Below the pieces are notes generated by a model. It worked only from the letters and a program-made list of their open reading frames with translations. It did not search any database and was not told the DNA's origin. Positions 20,974 through 52,085 of a DNA stretch of 56,193 nt are shown here, piece by piece. The translations under genes were made by a program, and so were the position numbers. Every line of letters begins with the position of its first letter. Position 1 is the stretch's first letter. Source of the stretch: a virus; IMG/VR virus record IMGVR_UViG_3300020198_001070, positions 1 through 56,193 of that record, one strand, 5' to 3'.

Positions 20974-23097
20974 ATGGATATGAATAAAATAACAGTAATC
21001 AAAAGAAATGGTTCTAAAGAACCATTAAATTTAGAAAAATGGCAACAACAGATTGCCAACGTTTGTTCAGGAATTGCAGATGTCAGTCAATCAATGATTG
21101 AAATCAAAAGTCAACCTCATTATTATGACGGCATTACTACTAAAGAAATCGATGAAATTACATTACGCGCTATCGTCGACTTAATCGATATAGAAGCAAA
21201 CCCAGATATAGGTCATACAAATTATCAATATGTAGCAGGTAAACAACGTTTATCAATGCTACGTAAAGATGTATACGGGCAATTTCAACCACTGCCATTA
21301 TATGAATTAGTTAAGAAAAATGTAGAAATTGGTCTTTATACACCAGAACTTTTAGAGTGGTACAATGAAGATGAATGGAATAAAATGGAGTTATTTATTG
21401 ACCATTCAAAAGATGAACAATATTCATACGCTGCCATTGAACAATTGATTGAAAAGTATCTTGTAAAAAATAGAGCAACTAAGGAAATTTTCGAAACTCC
21501 ACAAGTTCGTTACATGGTTGCTGCCGCAACAGTTTTTCATAAAGAAGAACCAAATTCGGCTAGGATGAAATATATCAAGGAATATTACAATGCTGCATCC
21601 GATGGCCTTTTTACTTTAGCCACCCCTGTACTTGCCGGTCTTGGTACGCCCACAAAACAATTTAGTAGTTGTGTTCTTATTCGCAGTGACGACGATCTTG
21701 ATAGTATTTTCGCCGCCGGTGAAATAATGGCGAAGTATGCTAGCAAACGTGCTGGCATAGGATTAGAAGTAGGTAGACTTCGTCCAGTAGGTTCACCTAT
21801 TAGAAATGGCGAAATCATGCATACCGGCTATATTCCTTTTCTTAAAAAATGGTATGGTGATTTAAGAAGTTGTTGTGTAACTCCTGAGACTTGGGTAGAG
21901 GTCATTGATGAGGGAGATTCCGATGAAATGGAAAAAACTAAAAAAATTCAAATTAAAGACCTAGCAGTAGGCATGAAGATTAAGACCAAAGACGAAACAG
22001 GTGAGATTGTTTTCAAAACAGTTACTAACAAATGGGACACAGTTGTCAAACAAGAAGACCAAGTTCGTTTGGAATTTGAGAATGGCGTGGTGTTAAACTG
22101 CTCGATAAATCACCCAATTATGTGTTTGGATGATGTCGGGTCAGTTGTCCAGAAGTTGCCAGATGCTCTAACACCTAAAGATCGTGTGTTAACTGAAGGC
22201 GGGTTTACACGGTTGCTAACTATTGATTTTGTTCAAGACAATGACGAAAACTACCTCGACATCACAGTAGAAAATACTCACACATTTTTTGCTTCTGGTT
22301 GTAAAGAAGGTCCAATGGTTCTGACTCATAATAGCCAGGGAGGTCTCAGAAATGCATCTGCTACAATTTTTTACCCAATCTGGCATTACCAATTTGATGA
22401 CCTTATTGTTCTTAAAAACAATCAAGGCACTGAAGAAACTAGAGTTCGTCATATGGACTACGGGGTCGTGTTATCAGCGTTCTTTTGGAGACGATGCAAA
22501 AACAAAGAAAACATAACATTCTTTGACCCAAACGAAGTTCCAGACTTATACGAAGCATTTTATCAAAATACATCTTTATTTGAAGAACTATATGTAAAAT
22601 ACGAAAAACGAAAAGACCTTCGTAAAAAAGTAATGAACGCAGAAGATGTATTCAAAGGTGGAATTTTAAAAGAACGCACTGATACCGGTAGAATTTACCT
22701 AGTGTTTATTGATAACGTAATGAACCAAGGACCATTTGATCCAGAATATCATACCATTTATCAATCTAATTTATGCTGTATAGCAGGTGATACAAAAGTA
22801 ACTTTCCAACATGAAAATGGAGGGGAAGAACAGATGTCTGTTTCGGATGCAGTTGAACGATTTAATTTAGGTGGATTATCTACTTCAAAAATTAAAAGTT
22901 TTAAGAATGGTGAAATTTCTTGGGAACATATTTCTGCAGCAATAGAAACAAAAACTGTTACAGAATTATATGAAATAGAAGACATATCTGGAAAAATTAT
23001 TAGATGTACAGGTGATCATTTAATTTATACAAAAAATCGAGGTTATGTTAGAGCAGATGAACTAATTGAAACCGACGTGTTATGTATAGAAAATTGA
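20974..23097 (+). CDS. nrdA: NrdA N-terminal part with one cis intein and an N-intein
   Basis: Class Ia ribonucleotide reductase large subunit, which reduces ribonucleotides to deoxyribonucleotides with NrdB. Residues 1-300 are the ATP-cone and catalytic barrel start (TKQFSSCVLIRSDDDLDS, GIGLEVGRLRPVGSPIRNG). Residues 301-453 are a mini-intein inserted between RSC and SQGGLRN. Residues 454-601 continue NrdA to YQSNLC. Residues 602-707 are the N-half of a split intein, after which the frame ends in TGA. The rest of NrdA is in the 23247 gene, so two splicing events, one in trans, are needed for the enzyme. Confidence 0.93.
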   Translation: MDMNKITVIKRNGSKEPLNLEKWQQQIANVCSGIADVSQSMIEIKSQPHYYDGITTKEIDEITLRAIVDLIDIEANPDIGHTNYQYVAGKQRLSMLRKDVYGQFQPLPLYELVKKNVEIGLYTPELLEWYNEDEWNKMELFIDHSKDEQYSYAAIEQLIEKYLVKNRATKEIFETPQVRYMVAAATVFHKEEPNSARMKYIKEYYNAASDGLFTLATPVLAGLGTPTKQFSSCVLIRSDDDLDSIFAAGEIMAKYASKRAGIGLEVGRLRPVGSPIRNGEIMHTGYIPFLKKWYGDLRSCCVTPETWVEVIDEGDSDEMEKTKKIQIKDLAVGMKIKTKDETGEIVFKTVTNKWDTVVKQEDQVRLEFENGVVLNCSINHPIMCLDDVGSVVQKLPDALTPKDRVLTEGGFTRLLTIDFVQDNDENYLDITVENTHTFFASGCKEGPMVLTHNSQGGLRNASATIFYPIWHYQFDDLIVLKNNQGTEETRVRHMDYGVVLSAFFWRRCKNKENITFFDPNEVPDLYEAFYQNTSLFEELYVKYEKRKDLRKKVMNAEDVFKGGILKERTDTGRIYLVFIDNVMNQGPFDPEYHTIYQSNLCCIAGDTKVTFQHENGGEEQMSVSDAVERFNLGGLSTSKIKSFKNGEISWEHISAAIETKTVTELYEIEDISGKIIRCTGDHLIYTKNRGYVRADELIETDVLCIEN
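21874..22332 (+). other. cis mini-intein in NrdA, 153 aa
   Basis: Starts with Cys (CVTPETWVEV), has a block B-like segment (NCSINHPIMC) and ends TFFASGCKEG...VLTHN before a Ser +1 residue: the HINT-domain layout. No homing endonuclease domain fits in 153 aa. It interrupts the conserved KSC/SQGG site of NrdA. Confidence 0.9.
22777..23094 (+). other. N-terminal half of a split intein (NrdA)
   Basis: Begins CIAGDTKVTF, includes the block B segment RCTGDHLIYT and ends GYVRADELIETD...N followed by TGA. It resembles the NrdA-2 group of naturally split inteins described from marine phage metagenomes. Confidence 0.88.
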
Positions 23098-23128
23098 TTA
23101 CCAACACAAATACATGTAGAGGTAAAAC

Positions 23129-23254
23129 ATGTATAAAGAACTTTATAAAATACTGATAGATAATGCGAAATTAGAAACCAGAATAAAAAATCAAGGAACA
23201 TATTATGAACAAAACCATGAGTTTGTTCAAGGAAGAATAAAAAATAATGATTAA
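23129..23254 (+). CDS. 41-aa relic between the intein halves
   Basis: ATG frame with ribosome site TAGAGG. The end, GTYYEQNHEFVQGRIKNND, resembles the first HNH element of phage homing endonucleases (TYYEKHHI...) but stops before the rest of the domain. Probably a truncated homing endonuclease; its stop overlaps the ATG of the C-intein gene. Confidence 0.5.
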   Translation: MYKELYKILIDNAKLETRIKNQGTYYEQNHEFVQGRIKNND

Positions 23255-23348
23255 AATTAGAAAAATAATAGTTGAAGCAACAAAAGTATATGATATAACT
23301 GTTCCAGAAACCGAGTGTTTTTTTGCAAATGATATGTTGGTTCACAAT
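23247..23348 (+). other. C-terminal half of the split intein, 34 aa
   Basis: MIKIRKIIVEATKVYDITVP followed by a segment ending FFANDMLVHN and then Cys +1. This matches the short C-inteins (about 35 aa) of naturally split phage inteins. Confidence 0.9.
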
Positions 23349-24332
23349 TGTGAAATTTTACTTCCTACTAAACCATTTAAACGATTGGATGATGAAAGTG
23401 GCAGAATATCACTCTGTACCCTTGGCAGTCTGAATTGGGGTTCGTTTAGAAACCCAGAAGATATGCGTAGAGCTTGTAGAATTCTACATAGAAGTTTAAA
23501 TAATATTCTTGATTACCAGGACTTCTTATCAATACAAAGTAAATTAAGTAATGATGAAATTAGACCAATCGGAATTGGTATTACTAATTTAGCATATTGG
23601 GCAGCTAAACGTGGGTTTAAATATGGTGAACCTGATATGTTGGCCGAAGTTAAAAGTTGGATGGAACATCAAGCATACTACTTAACTGAATCCAGTGTTG
23701 AATTAGCCGAAGAACGTGGTCCGTGTTTACATAGTGATAAAACCAGATATGGACAGGGTATATTCCCTTGGGAATTACGTGCAGCCGGTGTTAATGAATT
23801 AACAGATTTCACCCCCGAATTACCTTGGGAACCATTACGTGACAGAATAAAAGTAAGTGGTGTTCGCAATGCCACACAAATGGCTATTGCACCAGTTGAG
23901 AGTTCTAGCGTTGTAATAAATTCAACTAATGGAATTGAAATGCCAATGCAATTAATCCAAACTAAAGAATCTAAATCTGGGTCATTAACACAAGTAGTTC
24001 CAGAATACCACAAATTGAAAACCAAATATCAATTATTATGGGAACAAACTGATTGTATCGGATATTTAAAAACAGCTGCTGTTTTAGCTGCTTTTACCGA
24101 CCAATCAATCAGTACCAATACTTTTTACAATCCTGCACATTTCCCAGATAGAAAAGTGCCAACAACATTGATTGCTAAAAACTTAATGTTAGCTCACTAT
24201 TTTGGGCTAAAAACTCTGTACTATTCGCTCGTAAGCAAACAAGGTAGTAAAGTAGATGATGTTGTTGACTTACCAAGAGGTGTTGATATCAATGACGATG
24301 ATGAAGATGAATGTATTGCATGTAAATTATAA
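23247..24332 (+). CDS. nrdA: C-intein plus NrdA C-terminal part
   Basis: Residues 1-34 are the C-intein half; from Cys35 the protein resumes NrdA: CEILLPTKPFKRLDDESG, then the C-terminal barrel with ISLCTLGSLNWGS, GIGITNLAYWAAKRG and QMAIAPVESSSVVINSTNG, ending in an acidic tail with the redox pair CIAC. Trans-splicing to the 20974 product would rebuild a full NrdA of roughly 770 aa. No separate promoter is seen, so both halves probably come from one mRNA. Confidence 0.93.
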   Translation: MIKIRKIIVEATKVYDITVPETECFFANDMLVHNCEILLPTKPFKRLDDESGRISLCTLGSLNWGSFRNPEDMRRACRILHRSLNNILDYQDFLSIQSKLSNDEIRPIGIGITNLAYWAAKRGFKYGEPDMLAEVKSWMEHQAYYLTESSVELAEERGPCLHSDKTRYGQGIFPWELRAAGVNELTDFTPELPWEPLRDRIKVSGVRNATQMAIAPVESSSVVINSTNGIEMPMQLIQTKESKSGSLTQVVPEYHKLKTKYQLLWEQTDCIGYLKTAAVLAAFTDQSISTNTFYNPAHFPDRKVPTTLIAKNLMLAHYFGLKTLYYSLVSKQGSKVDDVVDLPRGVDINDDDEDECIACKL

Positions 24333-34798: not shown

Positions 34799-36700
34799 AT
34801 GAAAAAAAAAATAATTGGCATTGATTTAGGAACTGGTGTATCTTGTGTTTCAGTTTTTGAAAATGGAACATATAAAATCATCGAAAATTCAGAAGGGTCT
34901 AGAACTACCCCAAGTGTAGTGACTTATACTGATACTGAAATTTTAGTCGGAGTTGCGGCAAAACGACAAGCAATTTCAAATCCAACCCACACCATTTACG
35001 AAATTAAAAGATTAATTGGTCGTAAATTTAATGACAAAGAAGTCCAAAATAGTATCAAATCACTTCCATATAAAATAATTGAAGCTGAAAACGGTGATGC
35101 TTGGATAGAAGTTAATGGTAATAAAATTTCACCACAGCAAGTCTCTGCTGAAATCCTTCGAAAAATGAAATCTACTGCAGAAGAATATTTAGGGCATGCA
35201 GTTACTGATGCCGTAATTACAGTACCTGCATACTTCAACGATGCACAACGTCAGGCAACTAAAGATGCTGGAAAAATAGCTGGATTGAATGTAGAACGTA
35301 TTATTAATGAGCCAACTGCCGGGTCCCTTGCGTTTGGTCTGGATAAACAATCATCAACCGATAGAAAAATTGTTATTTGGGATACTGGGTCCGGTACTCA
35401 TGATATTTCGGTAATAGAAATATCAAACATTGATGGTGAACATCAGTTTGAAGTTATTTCAACCAATGGTGATTGCCATTTAGGTGGGACTGACTTTGAT
35501 AATAGAATTATCGAATTTTTAAATAATGAATTCAAAACAGAAACTGGTATTAATTTGCTAGATGATGTTATCGCACTACAAAGACTGAAAGATGCAGCCG
35601 AAAAAGCAAAAATAGAACTATCTAATACATTACAAACTGACATCAATCTGCCATATATTTCAGCAGATAATACTGGTCCAAAACACTTAACTGTGAAATT
35701 ATCTCGTTCTAAATTTGAATCCTTGATTGACGATTTAATTGATCGATCTATTGAACCTTGCAAAATTGCATTGCATGATGCAAACTTATCAATTTCTGAT
35801 ATCGATGATATCATTTTAATAGGCGGTTCAACTAGAATTCCTAAAATGCAAGAAGCGGTTGAAAAATTATTTGGTAAAGTACCAAGAAAAGATGTGAATC
35901 CAGATGAAGCTGTAGCAGCAGGGGCTGCCGTTCAAGGCGCAGTTCTCGCAGGTGACAAAACTGATGTACTATTATTGGATGTAACCCCATTAAGTTTAGG
36001 GATCGAAACAATGGGTGGGGTATTTACCAAGTTGATTCAAAAAAATACCACTATCCCAACTAAAGCTAGTCAGACCTTTTCAACTGCAGAAGATAATCAA
36101 CCGGCAGTAACAATCAAAGTCGGACAAGGCGAACGTGAGTTATATCATTATAATAAGCAATTGGGTGAATTTAACTTAGATGGTATTGCGCCGTCCCCAC
36201 GTGGGATGCCACAAATCGAAGTTACCTTTGATATCGATGCGAATGGTATCATGCATATTTCAGCGCAAGACAAAGGCACTGGTAAGAAAAATAATATTAC
36301 CATCAAATCTGATTCTGGGCTAAGTGAAGATGAAATCAATCAAATGATTAAAGATGCGGAAACCAATGCGGAATCAGATAAAAAACAAAAAGAGTTGATT
36401 GAAGCACGTAATGGTGCAGAATCACAACGGCATAGTCTGCAAAAAGATTTTAATGATGTCAAAGATCAACTGACGGATGATGAACGTGCAGCATTTGAAG
36501 AAGCAACTTCTACCTTAGAAGAAGCAGTAAAAGGGGACGACGTTGAAAAAATCCAAGAATCTGTTTCTAAATTGTTTGAAGCAGCATCACCAGTTTTTGC
36601 TAAAAAACAAGAAGCTGAACAATCAACGAAAGACTCGGCAGGTGAATCTGATGAAGAATCAATCGACGCAGATTTTACAGAAGTTGACCCAGCGGAATAA
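34799..36700 (+). CDS. dnaK: Hsp70 chaperone DnaK
   Basis: 633 aa, full length: nucleotide-binding domain ([74 protein letters not shown]), linker [15 protein letters not shown], substrate-binding domain and helical lid, with an acidic C-terminus [14 protein letters not shown]. Two ATP-site motifs differ from cellular DnaK: GIDLGTT reads GIDLGTG and DLGGGTFD reads DTGSGTHD. No DnaJ or GrpE nearby, so it may use host co-chaperones. Good ribosome site (AGGAG). Confidence 0.95.
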
Positions 36701-36718
36701 AAATAATACAATATATGT

Positions 36719-36749
36719 GTGGGGTGCTCAAGGGAGACCCCACCTTTTT
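36719..36749 (+). terminator. intrinsic terminator after dnaK
   Basis: Stem GTGGGGT / ACCCCAC with a 10-nt loop, followed by CTTTTT. Confidence 0.8.
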
Positions 36750-36773
36750 CTTGCTTATGAAAGGAGAATTAAA

Positions 36774-37211
36774 ATGACACAATACAAACAACAATTAAGA
36801 ACAATTACCTCGTTAGATGCAGCAGCTCTTAGTAGAGCGTTAGTTGGATTTGATAGAATCATCAGTAGTAAATTAAATAGTACACAATCTAATTACCCAC
36901 CACACAATATACTCAAATATAATGAAACAAATTATGGTATTGAATTGGCAGTCGCAGGATTTAGTAAAGAAGAAATCAAGATCACAGTAGATCAAAATAT
37001 CTTATCTATTAACGGCGAACGTACAAACCCAATTTCAGAAGGCATTGAATTTTTGCACCGTGGGTTGGCAGCACGAAATTTCGTTGTTGAATTTCCATTG
37101 GCAGAATTTATGGAAGTCCGAGAAGCCGAGGTTAACAACGGAATTCTTAGGATTAGCGTAGAATACATCGTACCAGATGAACTCAAACCACGTCAAATTG
37201 AAATAAAATAG
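36774..37211 (+). CDS. small heat shock protein (Hsp20/IbpA type)
   Basis: 145 aa with the alpha-crystallin domain: YGIELAVAGFSKEEIKITVD, NILSINGERT, FLHRGLAARNFVVEFPLAEF and the C-terminal strand NNGILRISVEY. It holds unfolded proteins for DnaK, which is directly upstream. Own ribosome site (AAGGAG) after the dnaK terminator. Confidence 0.9.
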   Translation: MTQYKQQLRTITSLDAAALSRALVGFDRIISSKLNSTQSNYPPHNILKYNETNYGIELAVAGFSKEEIKITVDQNILSINGERTNPISEGIEFLHRGLAARNFVVEFPLAEFMEVREAEVNNGILRISVEYIVPDELKPRQIEIK

Positions 37212-37220
37212 TTTTTAATA

Positions 37221-37241
37221 TGGGGAAGTCAGACTTCCCCA
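37221..37241 (+). terminator. hairpin between hsp20 and clpS
   Basis: Perfect TGGGGAAGTC / GACTTCCCCA stem without a T run; may attenuate or protect the 3' end. Confidence 0.45.
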
Positions 37242-37262
37242 TTATATCAGGAAAATATAATA

Positions 37263-37562
37263 ATGTCAGATGTAAAATTTGAAGAATCAGTAAGTATCAA
37301 AGTTACTGAACCTAAAAAATGGAAGGTTATTATTTTAAATGATGATCATACCCCACACGCGTTTGTGATTTCGCTACTAATCGATCTTTTCCGTCATGAT
37401 GTCCAAAGCGCAACTGCCGTAACTACACAAGTCCATGAAACTGGGTCAGGCATTGCTGGAATTTATGATTTTGAAATTGCTGAAGTAAAAGCGGTTGATG
37501 CTACTAAACTGGCACGAGAAAATGGATTTCCATTACAAATTAAAATTGCGCAAGATGATTAA
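37263..37562 (+). CDS. clpS: ClpS-like adaptor
   Basis: Core motifs WKVIILNDDHTPHAFVISLL, TQVHETGSGIAGIYDFEIAE and DATKLARENGFPLQIKI follow ClpS. ClpS brings N-degron substrates to ClpA for ClpP; the phage form could redirect host ClpAP. 99 aa, with the acidic NDDHTP substrate/ClpA contact kept. Lies in the DnaK-Hsp20-ClpS proteostasis set. Confidence 0.88.
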   Translation: MSDVKFEESVSIKVTEPKKWKVIILNDDHTPHAFVISLLIDLFRHDVQSATAVTTQVHETGSGIAGIYDFEIAEVKAVDATKLARENGFPLQIKIAQDD

Positions 37563-37578
37563 CTTTTAGAGAACACAG

Positions 37579-38115
37579 ATGAGTTTAAAAGAATATACCA
37601 AAGATTTACATACAGAAATAGAAAAAACACAGTTTGCAAAACTGTTGCTTTCTGGTAACATCACACCTGCACACTATACCAACTACTTATATCAACTGTT
37701 GCTGGTATATTACCCAATTGAATTTGGTGCAAAAATGGTAGGGGCGCTGGATAATTTACCTGGATTGGAAAGGTCTGCACTTATTCTTGCAGATTTTGGT
37801 GAATTATCAGATACGCAATATAACGGGAAGTGGTGTCCAGCAACAATCAAATATCATAATTACCTGATTGATCTCATCAATGATGTTGACCGTCGACCAT
37901 TGATTAAAGCGCATTTGTATGTTCGTCACATGGGTGATTTATTTGGTGGGCAATATATTGCCAAAAAAGTGCCAGGCAGTGGTAAAATGTATCAGTTTAC
38001 TGATATGGACTTGCTGAAAACCAATATCAGAAGTTTAGCAACTGATGAATTAGGTGATGAAGCAAGAATTGCATTTAAATGGTCCATCGATATTATGAAT
38101 GAATTATATGAGTAA
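37579..38115 (+). CDS. heme oxygenase (biliverdin-forming)
   Basis: 178 aa: proximal heme His11 in YTKDLHTEIEKT and distal helix RHMGDLFGGQYIAKKVPG (family consensus GDLSGGQ). It opens heme to biliverdin, CO and iron using electrons from ferredoxin. The stop overlaps the bilin reductase ATG, showing coupled translation and metabolic linkage. Compact size fits phage HO forms such as ho1 in marine viruses. Confidence 0.92.
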   Translation: MSLKEYTKDLHTEIEKTQFAKLLLSGNITPAHYTNYLYQLLLVYYPIEFGAKMVGALDNLPGLERSALILADFGELSDTQYNGKWCPATIKYHNYLIDLINDVDRRPLIKAHLYVRHMGDLFGGQYIAKKVPGSGKMYQFTDMDLLKTNIRSLATDELGDEARIAFKWSIDIMNELYE

Positions 38116-43347: not shown

Positions 43348-44220
43348 ATGACAGTCTTAATATTGACTAAACAAAAAGATTCAGATTATGAAACTACAAA
43401 ACTTTTAAACAGTTTTATTGAAAAAAATATTTCCGTCAAAATTTGTTATTTTAATAGATTTGATATTGTGATAAATCATGGTATTTTTTATGATGGTGAA
43501 CGGATAGATAACCCAAAAATAGTACTTGTGAGACTTGGTGCTGGCATTACTCGAGCAGAATTATCAGTGATACGTTTTTTTGAATTGATACAGATTCCGT
43601 GTTATAATACAAGTGATAGTATAAATCTAGTTCAAGATAAATTCCAAACAAGTGAAATATTGGCAGCAGTGAACATCGCTGTTCCACATACGATGGTTGT
43701 TAAAACGCCAGTTAGAAATAATATAGTAAAAGATACTATTGGATTTCCGTGCGTCCTTAAAGTAAATGTTGGTAGTTTTGGAGAAGGCGTATATTTGTGC
43801 CATTCTGAACAAGAGTTTTTGAATTTAATCGAATTCGTTGATGCAATACACAATGAAAAAACATTAATTGCTCAAGAATATTTAAGTGATAAACCAGGAA
43901 TGGATTTACGTGTATTCGTAGTTGGTGACAAAGTTATCGGTGCAATGAAAAGAATTGCCCCTAAAGGTGACTTTCGTGCTAATATAACACATGGTGGAAC
44001 TGGTGAAGAATTTAAAGTTTCAAAAGAAATAGAAGAAATTGCTCTTAAAACAGCAAAAGTTTTAGGTTTAACTATTGCAGGAATAGATCTACTATTTGAT
44101 GCCCGTGGGTTTAGGGTTTGTGAAGCAAATTCAAATCCAGGGTTTATTGGGTTTGACAAATATTGCAATACTGACATAGCAAATGAAATAACATCATTTA
44201 TTATTAGTAAAATTCAATGA
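43348..44220 (+). CDS. RimK-like ATP-grasp ligase
   Basis: 290 aa: pre-ATP-grasp domain, then FPCVLKVNVGSFGEGVYLC (ATP-binding Lys and Gly-rich loop), AQEYLSDKPGMDLRVFVVGD, and metal site GIDLLFDARGFRVCEANSNPGF. This is the RimK/GshB ATP-grasp group that forms amide bonds, such as Glu addition to ribosomal protein S6, or peptide cross-links in graspetides. It lies between the PqqA-like peptide and the cyclase; modifying the peptide is a natural hypothesis. A 41-nt gap precedes it and only 1 nt separates it from the cyclase. Confidence 0.82.
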   Translation: MTVLILTKQKDSDYETTKLLNSFIEKNISVKICYFNRFDIVINHGIFYDGERIDNPKIVLVRLGAGITRAELSVIRFFELIQIPCYNTSDSINLVQDKFQTSEILAAVNIAVPHTMVVKTPVRNNIVKDTIGFPCVLKVNVGSFGEGVYLCHSEQEFLNLIEFVDAIHNEKTLIAQEYLSDKPGMDLRVFVVGDKVIGAMKRIAPKGDFRANITHGGTGEEFKVSKEIEEIALKTAKVLGLTIAGIDLLFDARGFRVCEANSNPGFIGFDKYCNTDIANEITSFIISKIQ

Positions 44221-44221
44221 C

Positions 44222-46267
44222 ATGATTAAAAAAATAATTGTAAGTCCTTGGACGGCATTGTTAACATTATTGCTGGTTATCAGTGTTCGAATATCAGACC
44301 CTGTGTTTGTCGAAAGCATTAGGTTACGGTATTTTGATACGTTAATCACATCCAAACCTACCACAGAAAATAACATATTTACAGTTAATATTGATGAAGA
44401 ATCTATCAACCAATATGGACAATGGCCATTTAAACGTGATATATATGCAAACATAATACAAAATTTATACCAACATAATGCTGGATTAGTAGTATTTAAT
44501 GTATTAATGCCAGAAATAGACAGGCAGGGTGGTGATAACGTATTACAAGATGTATTATCATCATACCCAGTTATTCTACCAAATATACCATCTGATATTT
44601 CCAAAAATACCCCAAAAATACCGGGTTCAGCAGTATTAAATCCAGAATACTTAGATAGAGTTATACAATACCCAGGAATTATTGCAAATATTCCATCATT
44701 AGAAGATATTGCAGCCGGGGTCGGTACTGTTAATACATTACCGGAAATAGATGGTGTTAATCGACGGATACCATTGATAGTAACAGTCAACGACAAATTA
44801 TACCCAGCACTTAGTTTAGAAACATTACGTGTTGCGGCAGGTGATACGACATTTCAAGTAAAATTGAGTGAATTAGGTGTTGAAAAAATGCGTATACCCG
44901 CATTTGGTCCTATAACAACAGATAATTTAGGTAGAATATGGATAGATTGGAGTCAATCAGCGACCAGTATAAGTCTTTCCAATATTCCAAATGATTTGGG
45001 TGGGGCAATTGTGATAGTTGGTCCAACAGCTGCTGGAATAGGCAATCCTATACCAACAGCGAAAGGGGCAATTTTTCCACACGAAACACAAGCATCAGTA
45101 ATTGGTACTATGTTGAATAACGTAGTTATTCAACGACCTGATTACGCAGATGGTATGGAAATACTAAGTGTGTTACTAGCGGGGATGTTATTACTTGCAT
45201 TGACAAGATGGATTTATATTGGGTTACTATCAATTGTTATAGTATCTGTTGGTGCAGTTTTGGGTAGCAGGTATGTATTTTCACAGTATCTATACCTTAT
45301 CGATGTGACTTTTTTTATTAGTAGTATTGTGTTAACATCATTGCATGCATATGGTGTTAAATTTTTAAGTGAATTCTTCCAAAAACAGCAAATCAAAAAA
45401 CAATTCGGTTCATATGTAAGTCCGGTAATTGTTGAACGTTTACAAAAAAATCCTAATCTTATTAAATTGGGCGGCGAAGAAAAAATGCTGTCAGCAGTAA
45501 TGACAGATATGCGGAACTTCACGGGGTTAGGTGAAAAATATGGGTCTGATGTAGAAGGGTTTACTTCTATTATGAATGAATACATGACTACAATCAGTGT
45601 CCCGGTATTTGCAAATGATGGATGTTTAATTAAATTCATTGGTGATGCGTCTTTACATATTCATGGTGCACCATTAGATGATTCACGACACGCATACCAC
45701 GCGGTAAAAACTGCGATTGAAATGATTCAAGCAGTTGATGATTTTAATAAGCATTTGCATTCAATTGGAAAACCACCAGTTGGCATGGGGGCTGGTGTAA
45801 ATACTGGTAAAATTCTAGTAGGTAATATTGGCAGTTCTGGCAAAATGGGGTATGATGTATTAGGTGACCCAGTATCAGTAGCTAGTCGATTAGAAGGGCA
45901 AACAAAAAGTTATGGTGTATTATTATTAATTGGTCCAGATACATTTAATGATGTAAAAAATGATTTTCATTGCTTTGAACTAGATTGCATTGCTCTTAAA
46001 GGAAAATCTATTGGATTACATATCTATACACCATTGTTCAATAATGACAACTTTAACCAACCGGATGCAGAACGACATGCTTATATGATTGAAGCATACC
46101 GTGCGCAAGATTTTGACACTGCCGAAATAATGACGCGTAGTTTATTTGGTTGTTTTGGTGGTGAATTAGACCATTACTATGAATTATGGCTGGACAGAAT
46201 CAATATTATGAAAGAATTATCATTACCATCTGATTGGGATGGAATTTATCGAGCTACATCAAAATAA
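44222..46267 (+). CDS. CHASE2-domain adenylate cyclase, 681 aa
   Basis: TM helix at the N-terminus, periplasmic CHASE2 domain (residues about 35-300; FTVNIDEESINQYGQWPF, GVNRRIPLIVTVN), three TM helices to about 380, then a class III cyclase domain. Metal Asp residues lie in VMTDMRNFT and IGDAS; purine-selecting Lys (LIKFIGD) and Asp545 (GYDVLG) indicate ATP. The transition-state Asn is Ser552 (GDPVSVASR) while Arg556 is kept, so activity may be reduced or altered. Would make cAMP in response to an envelope signal. Follows the RimK-like gene with a 1-nt gap. Confidence 0.9.
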   Translation: MIKKIIVSPWTALLTLLLVISVRISDPVFVESIRLRYFDTLITSKPTTENNIFTVNIDEESINQYGQWPFKRDIYANIIQNLYQHNAGLVVFNVLMPEIDRQGGDNVLQDVLSSYPVILPNIPSDISKNTPKIPGSAVLNPEYLDRVIQYPGIIANIPSLEDIAAGVGTVNTLPEIDGVNRRIPLIVTVNDKLYPALSLETLRVAAGDTTFQVKLSELGVEKMRIPAFGPITTDNLGRIWIDWSQSATSISLSNIPNDLGGAIVIVGPTAAGIGNPIPTAKGAIFPHETQASVIGTMLNNVVIQRPDYADGMEILSVLLAGMLLLALTRWIYIGLLSIVIVSVGAVLGSRYVFSQYLYLIDVTFFISSIVLTSLHAYGVKFLSEFFQKQQIKKQFGSYVSPVIVERLQKNPNLIKLGGEEKMLSAVMTDMRNFTGLGEKYGSDVEGFTSIMNEYMTTISVPVFANDGCLIKFIGDASLHIHGAPLDDSRHAYHAVKTAIEMIQAVDDFNKHLHSIGKPPVGMGAGVNTGKILVGNIGSSGKMGYDVLGDPVSVASRLEGQTKSYGVLLLIGPDTFNDVKNDFHCFELDCIALKGKSIGLHIYTPLFNNDNFNQPDAERHAYMIEAYRAQDFDTAEIMTRSLFGCFGGELDHYYELWLDRINIMKELSLPSDWDGIYRATSK

Positions 46268-49238: not shown

Positions 49239-49259
49239 GTCACATCTAGTGACTTTTTT
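49239..49259 (+). terminator. short intrinsic terminator
   Basis: GTCAC / GTGAC stem with loop ATCTA and T6. The same TAGTGACTTTTTT end recurs after the next gene. Confidence 0.65.
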
Positions 49260-49281
49260 AAAATATAATATAGGTATAATT

Positions 49282-50109
49282 ATGAGTACAAATGAAGAAA
49301 ATGAAGATTTTAGCGTTTCTAATTCAGATGATGAAATTAATAGCTGTAATTTTTGGCAAAATACGCTAGTTGAAATGGGATTAGATAATATTACTGAAGA
49401 ATATGTAGATTTATCTAGCTATCTAGATCATTCAGATAACACTACAATTTTAGATTGGACCAACTGGGATGATTACCAATTATCATTTGATGATGATACA
49501 AATGGTGATGATGATGATTACCAATTATCATTTGATGATGATACAAATGGTGATGATGATTATCAATTATCATTTGATGATGATACAAATGGTGATGATG
49601 ATGATTACCAATTATCATTTGATGATGATACAAATGGTGATGATGATGATTACCAATTATCATTTGATGATGATACAATGTTAGATTGGACCAACTGGGA
49701 TGATTGCCAATTATCATTTGATGATGATACAAATGGTGATGATGATGATTACCAATTATCATTTGATGATGATACAATGTTAGATTGGACCAACTGGGAT
49801 GATTGCCAATTATCATTTGATGATGATACAAATGGTGATGATGCTGATTATCAATTATCATTTGATGCATTGATGGATTCAGAATCCGTAGAGACAGAGA
49901 CATTCACATTATTTAATTTTCAAGATTTTGGTTGGAATCAACTTGAAACTGACACCACAAATCACTGGTATTGTGACAATGTTGTAGTTGAACAATTCTT
50001 AATTGATGAACCGGACAATAGTATTGACCAATTTGAATTAGAATGTAATTTAATTCAAGATAATGACGGTGATGCATTGGCATTGATCGGTGTATTACCA
50101 TTCGTATAA
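49282..50109 (+). CDS. Asp-rich tandem-repeat protein, 275 aa
   Basis: Starts at MSTNEENEDFSVSNSDDE. Residues about 60-195 consist of tandem copies of a 14-15-residue unit, DDYQLSFDDDTNGDD, sometimes alternating with TMLDWTNWDDCQLSF. The C-terminal 75 residues are non-repetitive and acidic (NFQDFGWNQLETD). Extremely acidic, so it could mimic DNA or bind cations. No signal peptide. The minus-strand frames here (His-rich) are shadows of the repeat. Confidence 0.7.
   Translation: MSTNEENEDFSVSNSDDEINSCNFWQNTLVEMGLDNITEEYVDLSSYLDHSDNTTILDWTNWDDYQLSFDDDTNGDDDDYQLSFDDDTNGDDDYQLSFDDDTNGDDDDYQLSFDDDTNGDDDDYQLSFDDDTMLDWTNWDDCQLSFDDDTNGDDDDYQLSFDDDTMLDWTNWDDCQLSFDDDTNGDDADYQLSFDALMDSESVETETFTLFNFQDFGWNQLETDTTNHWYCDNVVVEQFLIDEPDNSIDQFELECNLIQDNDGDALALIGVLPFV
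49471..49860 (+). repeat. 39-45-bp tandem coding repeat
   Basis: Units containing CCAATTATCATTTGATGATG repeat about nine times with 3-bp length variation and one larger two-part unit (containing TTAGATTGGACCAACTGGG) present three times. Typical of slippage or recombination-driven expansion. Confidence 0.9.
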
Positions 50110-50368: not shown

Positions 50369-50518
50369 ATTAAACAGCGCATATGGAAGACATTGGTACA
50401 ATAATGGAGTAAAAAAATTATTATCTATATCCATCAGATAATAAAATCGCTGAAATGAATTTAGAAAAACGTAGACTCCATTTGAATGGATGATATGGGT
50501 TTGTGAGAATTCGTTGAA

Positions 50519-50790
50519 GGTATTGTAATAGTCTTGGCGGACTCGGCTATCGTTATGCCGACATCTCCACCCCCCATCAAAAGTGTACTTAAATCTGAAA
50601 AAGATGACGTTTGGGGATAGTACACTTTTGATGGGGATGTAAGGATTCGACGTTGAGATGAAGGAATACTGGAGAATCATCAGATAAGATGTAAAAATTA
50701 AATAAAGTAAATGCAAAAGCAAATACAAAATTTGAATTCTACACTGTAGATGGCATCTTTGATGCCATTGCTGCCTAGTAAGTAGCAAGT
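50519..50790 (+). ncRNA. ssrA: circularly permuted (two-piece) tmRNA
   Basis: The acceptor piece comes first: T-arm TCGGC/GCCGA (50543-50561) and 3' acceptor strand CATCTCC (50562-50568) with ACC. A spacer with an 18-bp precursor stem follows (50572-50636). The coding piece then starts GGGGATG (50633), pairing fully with CATCTCC, and has the tmRNA hallmark GGATTCGACG (50643-50652). P2 forms between CGTTGAGA and TCTTGGCG plus AATACT/GGTATT. The tag frame (50713-50775) encodes AKANTKFEFYTVDG... ending DAIAA, then TAG TAA inside a hairpin (TTGCT/AGCAA). It rescues stalled ribosomes. Exact ends uncertain. Confidence 0.8.
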
Positions 50791-50853
50791 TCCGGGGGTA
50801 GTGCCTTGTTATCAAATAACTAGTGGGGAGAAATCCCCACTTCATTTGCACCA
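50785..50853 (+). tRNA. tRNA-like element, possible pseudo-tRNA
   Basis: GCAAGTT pairs with CATTTGC (6 of 7) before ACCA; an arm GTGGG-GAGAAAT-CCCAC sits in the T-arm place but lacks the TTC loop; a CAA-anticodon-like loop lies in GTT-ATCAAAT-AAC. The D-arm is poor. It overlaps the tmRNA end, so it may be part of that RNA or a decayed tRNA. Confidence 0.3.
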
Positions 50854-50859
50854 ATAATT

Positions 50860-50936
50860 GCGCTAGTAACCCATATGGCAAGGGTGACTGCCTCTAAAAC
50901 AGTATATAGCAGGTTCAAGTCCTGTCTAGCGCACCA
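50860..50936 (+). tRNA. tRNA with CTA anticodon (amber suppressor)
   Basis: 77 nt: acceptor GCGCTAG/CTAGCGC with ACCA, D-stem ACCC/GGGT, anticodon loop CTCTAAA giving CTA, which reads UAG, T-arm GCAGG-TTCAAGT-CCTGT. The anticodon stem has one C-A mismatch at its top. All other arms are intact, so it is likely expressed. It could insert an amino acid at UAG codons; which one cannot be told here. Confidence 0.82.
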
Positions 50937-50956: not shown

Positions 50957-50985
50957 TTGACATAAAAAAATAATTGGAGTATAAT
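50957..50985 (+). promoter_or_regulatory. consensus sigma70 promoter
   Basis: TTGACA, 17-nt spacer, TATAAT: perfect. No ORF follows for 500 nt, so it drives a non-coding RNA. Confidence 0.85.
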
Positions 50986-50991
50986 ACACAA

Positions 50992-51386
50992 TATTAGGCT
51001 CCATTATAGGCAACATAGGCAACCCCACTTCAGATAATACTTGCACTGGTAAGATGAATAAGTGCCCCGAGATACGGAATGTGCTTCGCGTAGAGGGAAA
51101 CAATTGTGCTGAAGCAATGACTCATTTGACTACCCACACCTCGTGTTGTGGATGATGATCGGATATGCCTTCATACAACCGATTTCGAATGTTTGAATAA
51201 TATTAAAAAAGGCTAAAGAAGGGAGAAAAACCCTACGGACATATATGCGCTGGTATGTATATATGCACCCGCCGTCAGAAAAAATACAGCACTTCGAGGT
51301 ACCGGCTGACCGCCTCTGTAATAGTGTAATACCAGTGTGAAGTCAACTCAGTTGAAAAAATCATTTGCCCCCTTGCGGGGCAAAAT
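50992..51386 (+). ncRNA. unidentified structured RNA of about 400 nt
   Basis: Starts after the consensus promoter, has no sizeable ORF, and contains several helices, e.g. GGGAGAAAAACCC, ATCGG...CCGAT, CGTCAG...CTGACCG, and a strong final hairpin TTTGCCCC/GGGGCAAA at 51364-51386 with no T run. It lacks the signature sequences of RNase P RNA, 4.5S or a second tmRNA. Large phage RNAs such as GOLLD and ROOL also lie by tRNA clusters, but I see no basis for naming this one. Confidence 0.55.
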
Positions 51387-51494: not shown

Positions 51495-52085
51495 ATGAAA
51501 ATTAATGAATTATCTGGATATAAAAATAATGATCTTTATACTAAAGCAAAAGAAATATTTACTGGTAATAAAGATCAGGATGTATCATTTCGTGAATGGA
51601 AAAACATAATGGATTATTATGGGTTCACACATCTTGGTTCTGGTTCATATGGATCTGCCTATGAACACCCCAGTTATCCTTGGGTGTTTAAGATATTTAA
51701 AGGTGATAAGTCATATTTAAAATATTTTAACTATGTTAAAAAAAATCAACATAACCCACATATTCCGAGAATAAAAGGTTCTTATATACGACTAGGCAAT
51801 GATGCTTATATTGTACGATTGGAAAAATTACAAAAAATATCAATGGATCAATATGAAAAAGTAGAGTATATAATTGATGTTTTTTCAAGTATGTTAGACA
51901 ACGATTCATCTAGTACTGAGATAACTCCAATGCAAGCACAATTGATTGACTCGTATCATGGGATATACGAGATTCTGGTAGCAATCAAATATATGTTTGG
52001 TGAATCCTATACAGACATTCATTATGATAATATCATGATGCGTGGTAATGTTCCTGTAATAATAGACCCCGTGGTAGACCAATGA
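51495..52085 (+). CDS. protein-kinase-like phage protein, 196 aa
   Basis: Gly-rich loop FTHLGSGSYGSAYEHP, Lys in WVFKIFKGD, and a C-terminal catalytic-loop and metal pair TDIHYDNIMMRGNVPVIIDP, as in the kinase/aminoglycoside-phosphotransferase fold. It is shorter than full kinases (no C-lobe beyond the DP motif). N-terminus MKINELSGYK is the common T4-like leader. Targets unknown; similar proteins occur in T4-like marine phages. Confidence 0.7.
   Translation: MKINELSGYKNNDLYTKAKEIFTGNKDQDVSFREWKNIMDYYGFTHLGSGSYGSAYEHPSYPWVFKIFKGDKSYLKYFNYVKKNQHNPHIPRIKGSYIRLGNDAYIVRLEKLQKISMDQYEKVEYIIDVFSSMLDNDSSSTEITPMQAQLIDSYHGIYEILVAIKYMFGESYTDIHYDNIMMRGNVPVIIDPVVDQ

Follow-up and report, generated by a model that had tools for sequence, protein, structure and literature searches.

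The window, by which we mean the whole 56,193-bp stretch of DNA analyzed here, is a single metagenomic virus contig from IMG/VR. When it was scanned in full with Rfam, the permuted tmRNA model (RF04321, tmRNA_permuted) matched positions 50508-50778 on the plus strand with 74.6 bits (gathering score 47, E 1.6e-12), delimiting a gene that runs from P2 to the stop of the tag. On the 5' side of this gene, whose parts all lie on the plus strand, two P2 strands (50519-50538; GGTATT at 50519-50524 and GTCTTGGC at 50531-50538) precede GGAC and a non-canonical T-arm with a 9-nt loop, TCGGC-UAUCGUUAU-GCCGA (50539-50561). The 3' acceptor strand CATCTCC (50562-50568) follows, with the discriminator A and CC (together 50562-50571), and next to it an inverted-repeat search revealed a perfect 18-bp hairpin (50572-50636; arms 50572-50589 and 50619-50636). 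The 5' acceptor strand GGGGATG (50633-50639), which begins at a predicted RNase P site before 50633, forms seven pairs with CATCTCC, including G3-U70, so that the 3' strand of the acceptor stem lies upstream of its 5' strand. A G3-U70 pair is the mark of alanine acceptors. Downstream are the D-loop motif GGATTCGAC (50643-50651), conserved in relatives, and the second set of P2 strands (50652-50670), of which GTTGAGAT (50652-50659) pairs with 50531-50538 at 8/8 positions and AATACT (50665-50670) pairs with 50519-50524. The tag reading frame AKANTKFEFYTVDGIFDAIAA (50713-50778) ends with a TAG stop followed by TAA, and the conserved 3' part CCTTGTTATCAAATAAC with the closing hairpin GTGGGGAGAAATCCCCAC, which lacks a T run, occupies 50804-50840; this motif was also present in another locus, L088. 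The predicted fold of the tmRNA region was 5.6 sd below the energy of its own shuffles, and no good promoter was found directly upstream of the gene.

A tRNA with a CUA anticodon, of the amber suppressor type, was called by ARAGORN at 50860-50936 (plus strand; Rfam 56 bits), starting 20 nt past the closing hairpin of the tmRNA; it has an encoded CCA and a canonical T-loop. Besides this one, ARAGORN listed CUA tRNAs in 8 of the other loci retrieved. Read-through of the TAG at the end of the tag would append one residue after AIAA; recoding of TAG, which such a tRNA might suggest, was unsupported, since TAG is the stop of 5 of the 84 ORFs and few frames run on through it. A Polynucleobacter-1 RNA (RF01718, 68.4 bits) was detected at 51038-51194, with a perfect sigma-70 promoter (TTGACA-17-TATAAT, 50957-50985) about 50 bases ahead of it. 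Just upstream of the tmRNA, a 286-aa ORF (49249-50109) encodes acidic repeats (YQLSFDDDTNGDDD) and gave no PHROG match.

The initial annotation had read the locus as a phage-borne tmRNA gene in circularly permuted, two-piece form, and the score of RF04321, the permuted acceptor order and the fully paired P2 strand all agree with this description. Its confirmation by other tools was uneven: the alpha_tmRNA model reached 37.8 bits, under its cut-off of 50, the beta and cyano tmRNA models gave no match at the locus, and ARAGORN called the nearby tRNAs in the window but not the permuted tmRNA gene. The initial annotation had also staked its reading on model scores and on compensatory changes in the stems; because the acceptor and P2 vary compensatorily among relatives, it passed its own test. 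Its anatomy of acceptor, P2 and tag was confirmed as well, but the odd T-arm, the absence of an encoded CCA and the 18-bp hairpin that competes with the acceptor stem had escaped it.

The permuted order itself had been presented as a novelty among phage tmRNAs, which we rejected, as such genes are already reported and common. A two-piece tmRNA was described in the Methylophilales phage Melnitz together with a list of 53 such genes from phages, 50 of which are aquatic (Buchholz 2022, PMC9004378), and a single DNA pattern found 112 permuted tmRNAs in one scan of IMG/VR. Two of these 112 belong to the cultured Stenotrophomonas phages IME-SM1 and Moby, in whose relative Yut2 the gene is annotated as SsrA. 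When the 5' strand was located by the D-loop motif alone, 79 of 109 motif sites gave 7/7 acceptor pairs, formed by nine different sequence pairs, and the other motif sites gave at most 4 pairs. Position 1 of P2 was paired in 97.5% of 79 permuted phage tmRNAs, compared with 47.9% after shuffling. Melnitz and the Pelagibacter phage HTVC008M are relatives of the window phage, whose cyclase is 39.7% identical to that of Melnitz over 99% of its length and whose contig carries a curli CsgG gene. Among 50 related contigs, 7 held a permuted tmRNA above the cut-off, most of which also exceeded the cut-off of the beta model. A blastn search of the locus against phage records returned tRNA-level matches only, and our scans found neither a near-identical copy nor a close relative of the window copy. 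Elsewhere in the window, the ribonucleotide reductase large subunit (20974-24332) is encoded in two ORFs split by apparent intein sequences, and host-like genes at 34799-38115 and 43348-46267 encode DnaK (Hsp70, 825 bits), heme oxygenase, a RimK-like ATP-grasp protein and the Melnitz-related cyclase. Rfam did not find in the window the glutamine riboswitch that has been reported in Melnitz (PMC9004378).

What is new here is the non-canonical T-arm, not the permutation. Few parts of tRNA and tmRNA are as conserved as the T-loop, which in canonical tmRNA reads UUCGANU with a UUCGA turn; the permuted tmRNA model does not require this usual loop. The loop of the window does not fit this consensus; it belongs to a class defined by a 5-bp T-stem and an 8-nt loop, U-N-UCG-N'-A-U, in which N and N' are Watson-Crick partners. 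The window represents a 9-nt form, with A-U as the N:N' pair and an extra U after N'; L345/L368 (permuted) and L384 (standard) have such a U as well. We searched IMG/VR with the pattern GGAC, 5 any, U-N-UCG-N'-AU, 9 any, UCCACCA, which left the stem, N and N' free; the first loop U, UCG and AU were fixed by the pattern, and their conservation is therefore not evidence. Of the 94 matches, 85 could form four or more of the five T-stem pairs, and N and N' were complementary in every one of these 85 (A-U 49, C-G 29, U-A 7). After removal of duplicates and addition of the 9-nt forms, 59 distinct sequences with 16 different stems were obtained. In an alignment of 48 class rows, the loop pair was AU in 29, CG in 16 and UA in 3, with zero exceptions, the acceptor U-G pair was invariant (48/48), and the covariation of the entire structure was 0.506, compared with 0.116 for shuffled and at most 0.089 for slid controls. 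Grouping by overall similarity gave 32 clusters, 17 with A-U, 10 with C-G, 3 with U-A and 2 mixed; because the three pairs are spread over separate clusters, the N:N' pair has changed several times. A one-off decay or damage of the T-loop is ruled out by this conserved, covarying class. Structurally, the UCG turn could still present its U and C to the GG of the D-loop.

Members of the class are tmRNAs by several measures. Of 96 candidates, 87 have a partner acceptor strand, which lies in the permuted order in 43 and in the standard order in 44. The window is one of these 87 members, as are two phage contigs from bacterial assemblies, and three of the nine candidates lacking a partner strand are chance matches in bacterial genomes. 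All 18 members tested were called tmRNA by Rfam models, and the tags of the class are open and mostly end in ALAA, RLAA, LMAA or similar, with lengths of up to 45 aa. ARAGORN reported 3 of the 87 members, compared with 82 of 109 other phage tmRNAs from the permuted-pattern scan. Because this program misses nearly all members of the class, current counts of phage tmRNAs are too low. Two further loop variants were observed beside the class. The loop GGCAGNA occurs in the phage tmRNAs L086, L093 (Melnitz), L111, L132 and others, and resembles a GG change reported in the Reclinomonas mitochondrial tmRNA (PMC1168896). Loops of 6 nt (UUCGAU) in the permuted phage tmRNAs L127, L138 and L203 look like the new class minus its N:N' pair.

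The class appears to be restricted to phages. Across 84,980 bacterial and archaeal genomes, the T-loop pattern gave 22 matches, where we estimated about 30 by chance (17 fixed bases, 257 Gb, both strands), and only two of them, L438 and L444, fit the class. Both sit on phage contigs: L438 equals the viral contig L418 in length, and its MAG has a canonical tmRNA on another contig, while L444 encodes a phage exonuclease and an endolysin. For comparison, identical flanks with the canonical loop matched 91 of 299 Pseudomonadota genomes. Borrowing of the T-loop from unusual hosts is thus unsupported. A general fashion of phage T-arms was rejected, as no T-arm of this class was found outside tmRNA in 4.1 Mb of loci. 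Among named phage records, only crAss-like phages matched, including Buchavirus cr56_1, cr109_1 and cr113_1. Their copies have the T-arm of the class, the acceptor strands TAGCTCC/GGGGCTA and the permuted order, with the tag GNTSYVMDYTRLVA, found in cr56_1 and cr113_1, where the record covers it. These Buchavirus genes are unannotated (L453 2470-3300, L454 1170-2000, L451 660-958; NC_055890.1, NC_055896.1, NC_055892.1). Their intervening segment measures 151 nt in cr109_1 and 602 nt in cr56_1 and cr113_1, where an annotated endonuclease ORF lies antisense within it; the permuted tmRNA of cr109_1 scored just 30.3 bits with Rfam. We found no prior description of a U-N-UCG-N'-A-U loop in the open-licence papers searched, a scope that does not prove novelty.

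With homology to RF04321, a stable fold, compensatory changes in its relatives, an intact tag and stop and a T-loop class spread over many phages, the locus is probably (at roughly 0.75) a circularly permuted tmRNA gene of the phage whose T-arm is specific to phages, as judged from sequence. The window copy itself is most likely a working phage tmRNA, and two of its features bear on this reading. After the acceptor strand the window reads ACCCCCC, whereas 112 of 112 relatives found with the permuted pattern read ACC-A; because the base after CC is C, CCA is not encoded. The added CCCC lengthens the hairpin of the intervening segment to the perfect 18-bp helix, which captures the GGGG of the 5' acceptor strand. 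In secondary-structure energies, the unprocessed RNA favors this helix by 5.2 kcal/mol over the acceptor stem, and the predicted probability of the acceptor stem in the precursor is 0.004 in the window, compared with 0.99-1.0 in L088. After excision of the segment, a two-strand fold is predicted to contain the acceptor stem. On these folding models, the CCC end and the hairpin are compatible with a harmless change, with decay and with control of maturation.

If the gene were a once functional tmRNA on its way out, the loss of a CCA that all 112 relatives retain, the favored competing hairpin and the lack of a strong promoter directly upstream would all find an explanation. Yet the acceptor, T-stem, P2 and D-loop motif are all intact, as are the resume context and the 21-codon AIAA tag, and the T-loop, though odd, belongs to a conserved class and is not a sign of damage. 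Bacteria repair CCA ends, so a host enzyme could restore the terminus, and the encoded A of CCA is also missing in L085 and L353/L360, which read ACCT; for these two reasons the loss of CCA alone is not decisive, and we regard decay as unlikely. Timed maturation, in which the 18-bp hairpin would keep the precursor inactive until RNase III or another double-strand nuclease opens the helix, would account for a perfect hairpin that takes exactly the GGGG of the acceptor, and the PHROG matched by a kinase-like gene nearby (51495-52085; E 1.9e-12) is annotated as a positive regulator of RNase III. This link is by annotation only, however, a Pfam search of the kinase-like gene was empty, and the hairpin occurs in a single sequence with no conservation, which makes such regulation quite improbable. 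Used as a query for relatives, the kinase-like gene gave no matches. We consider it slightly more improbable still that an assembly error in the C run or the T-arm disguises an otherwise ordinary gene: within the scanned set, nothing else has the CCCCCC run or the UU form of the loop, and both come from one contig, but the 9-nt loop is independently present in L345/L368 and L384, and a mistake in the C run would have had to extend an existing inverted repeat perfectly.

Read as a working tmRNA, the whole gene would be transcribed as one RNA, from which the intervening segment (after 50571 to 50632) would be excised, presumably by RNase P at 50633, 3' trimming and CCA repair. The two pieces would be held together by the acceptor stem and P2, with a T-arm that retains its 5-bp stem and in which the U-N-UCG-N'-A-U loop with its N:N' pair (A-U here) would replace the UUCGA turn. 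Host alanyl-tRNA synthetase may charge the RNA via G3-U70, and host SmpB and EF-Tu would deliver it to stalled ribosomes; no phage-encoded SmpB was seen. The stalled protein would then receive the 21-aa tag ending in AIAA and be degraded, and the tmRNA may benefit the phage. The tag has 21 codons and a hydrophobic C-terminus, and had been called unusually long and taken as a clue to the host; it is longer than the usual 10 aa, but long tags, up to 45 aa, are common in phage tmRNAs. Standard-form phage tmRNAs L328, L329, L332, L350 and L403, for instance, have tags of 33-45 aa (e.g. ADDDMSDLLAEAEYIFNNADEFLGGIEEESYALAA). As a host clue the tag failed: most tags of relatives are ANDxxxALAA-like, the closest look-alike (AEKANT..., L087/L132) belongs to another phage, and host assignment was rejected for want of a match among the tags compared. 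The further proposal, that the phage may take over ribosome rescue, is plausible.

A covarying T-loop that occurs in many phages and in no scanned bacterial chromosome suggests that phages have tmRNA lineages of their own rather than recent host copies. We tentatively propose, at somewhat less than even odds, that a tRNA-like domain evolved in phages and is exchanged among them, that the T-loop class is a phage-only architecture common to unrelated phages (T4-like, crAss-like and others) in both gene orders, and that it is kept as an escape from a factor directed at the usual loop, such as host modification, processing, an intron or integrase that targets ssrA, or phage defence. Escape from something that recognizes the normal T-loop is a guess; group I introns do insert at the T-loop of bacterial tmRNA (PMC11915505). 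The class also offers a natural set of mutants for the T-loop needs of SmpB, EF-Tu, RNase P, modification enzymes and ssrA-targeting introns and integrases.

Compared with the permuted tmRNAs of RF04321 and RF01849-RF01851, the window shares the gene order, the G3-U70 acceptor, GGAC before the T-arm, the D-loop motif, the resume codon context and a tag before the stop, but has UAUCGUUAU in place of UUCGANU and no encoded CCA; with the lineage models, it falls below the alpha cut-off and leaves the beta and cyano models silent. The ssrA of Melnitz and the pelagimyophages (PMC9004378) is likewise a permuted phage tmRNA, and Melnitz and the window have curli and cyclase genes in common; however, Melnitz has the T-loop GGCAGTA, an encoded CCA and another tag. 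The Stenotrophomonas phages (Menderavirus) carry a permuted tmRNA with the same CATCTCC/GGGGATG acceptor, whereas their T-loop is the canonical TTCGATT and CCA is encoded. The one-piece tmRNAs of mycobacteriophages and Bacillus phage G (PMC4131195) are also phage-borne ssrA genes but differ in gene order, and the standard-form members of the T-loop class (44 of 87) have the T-arm type of the window.
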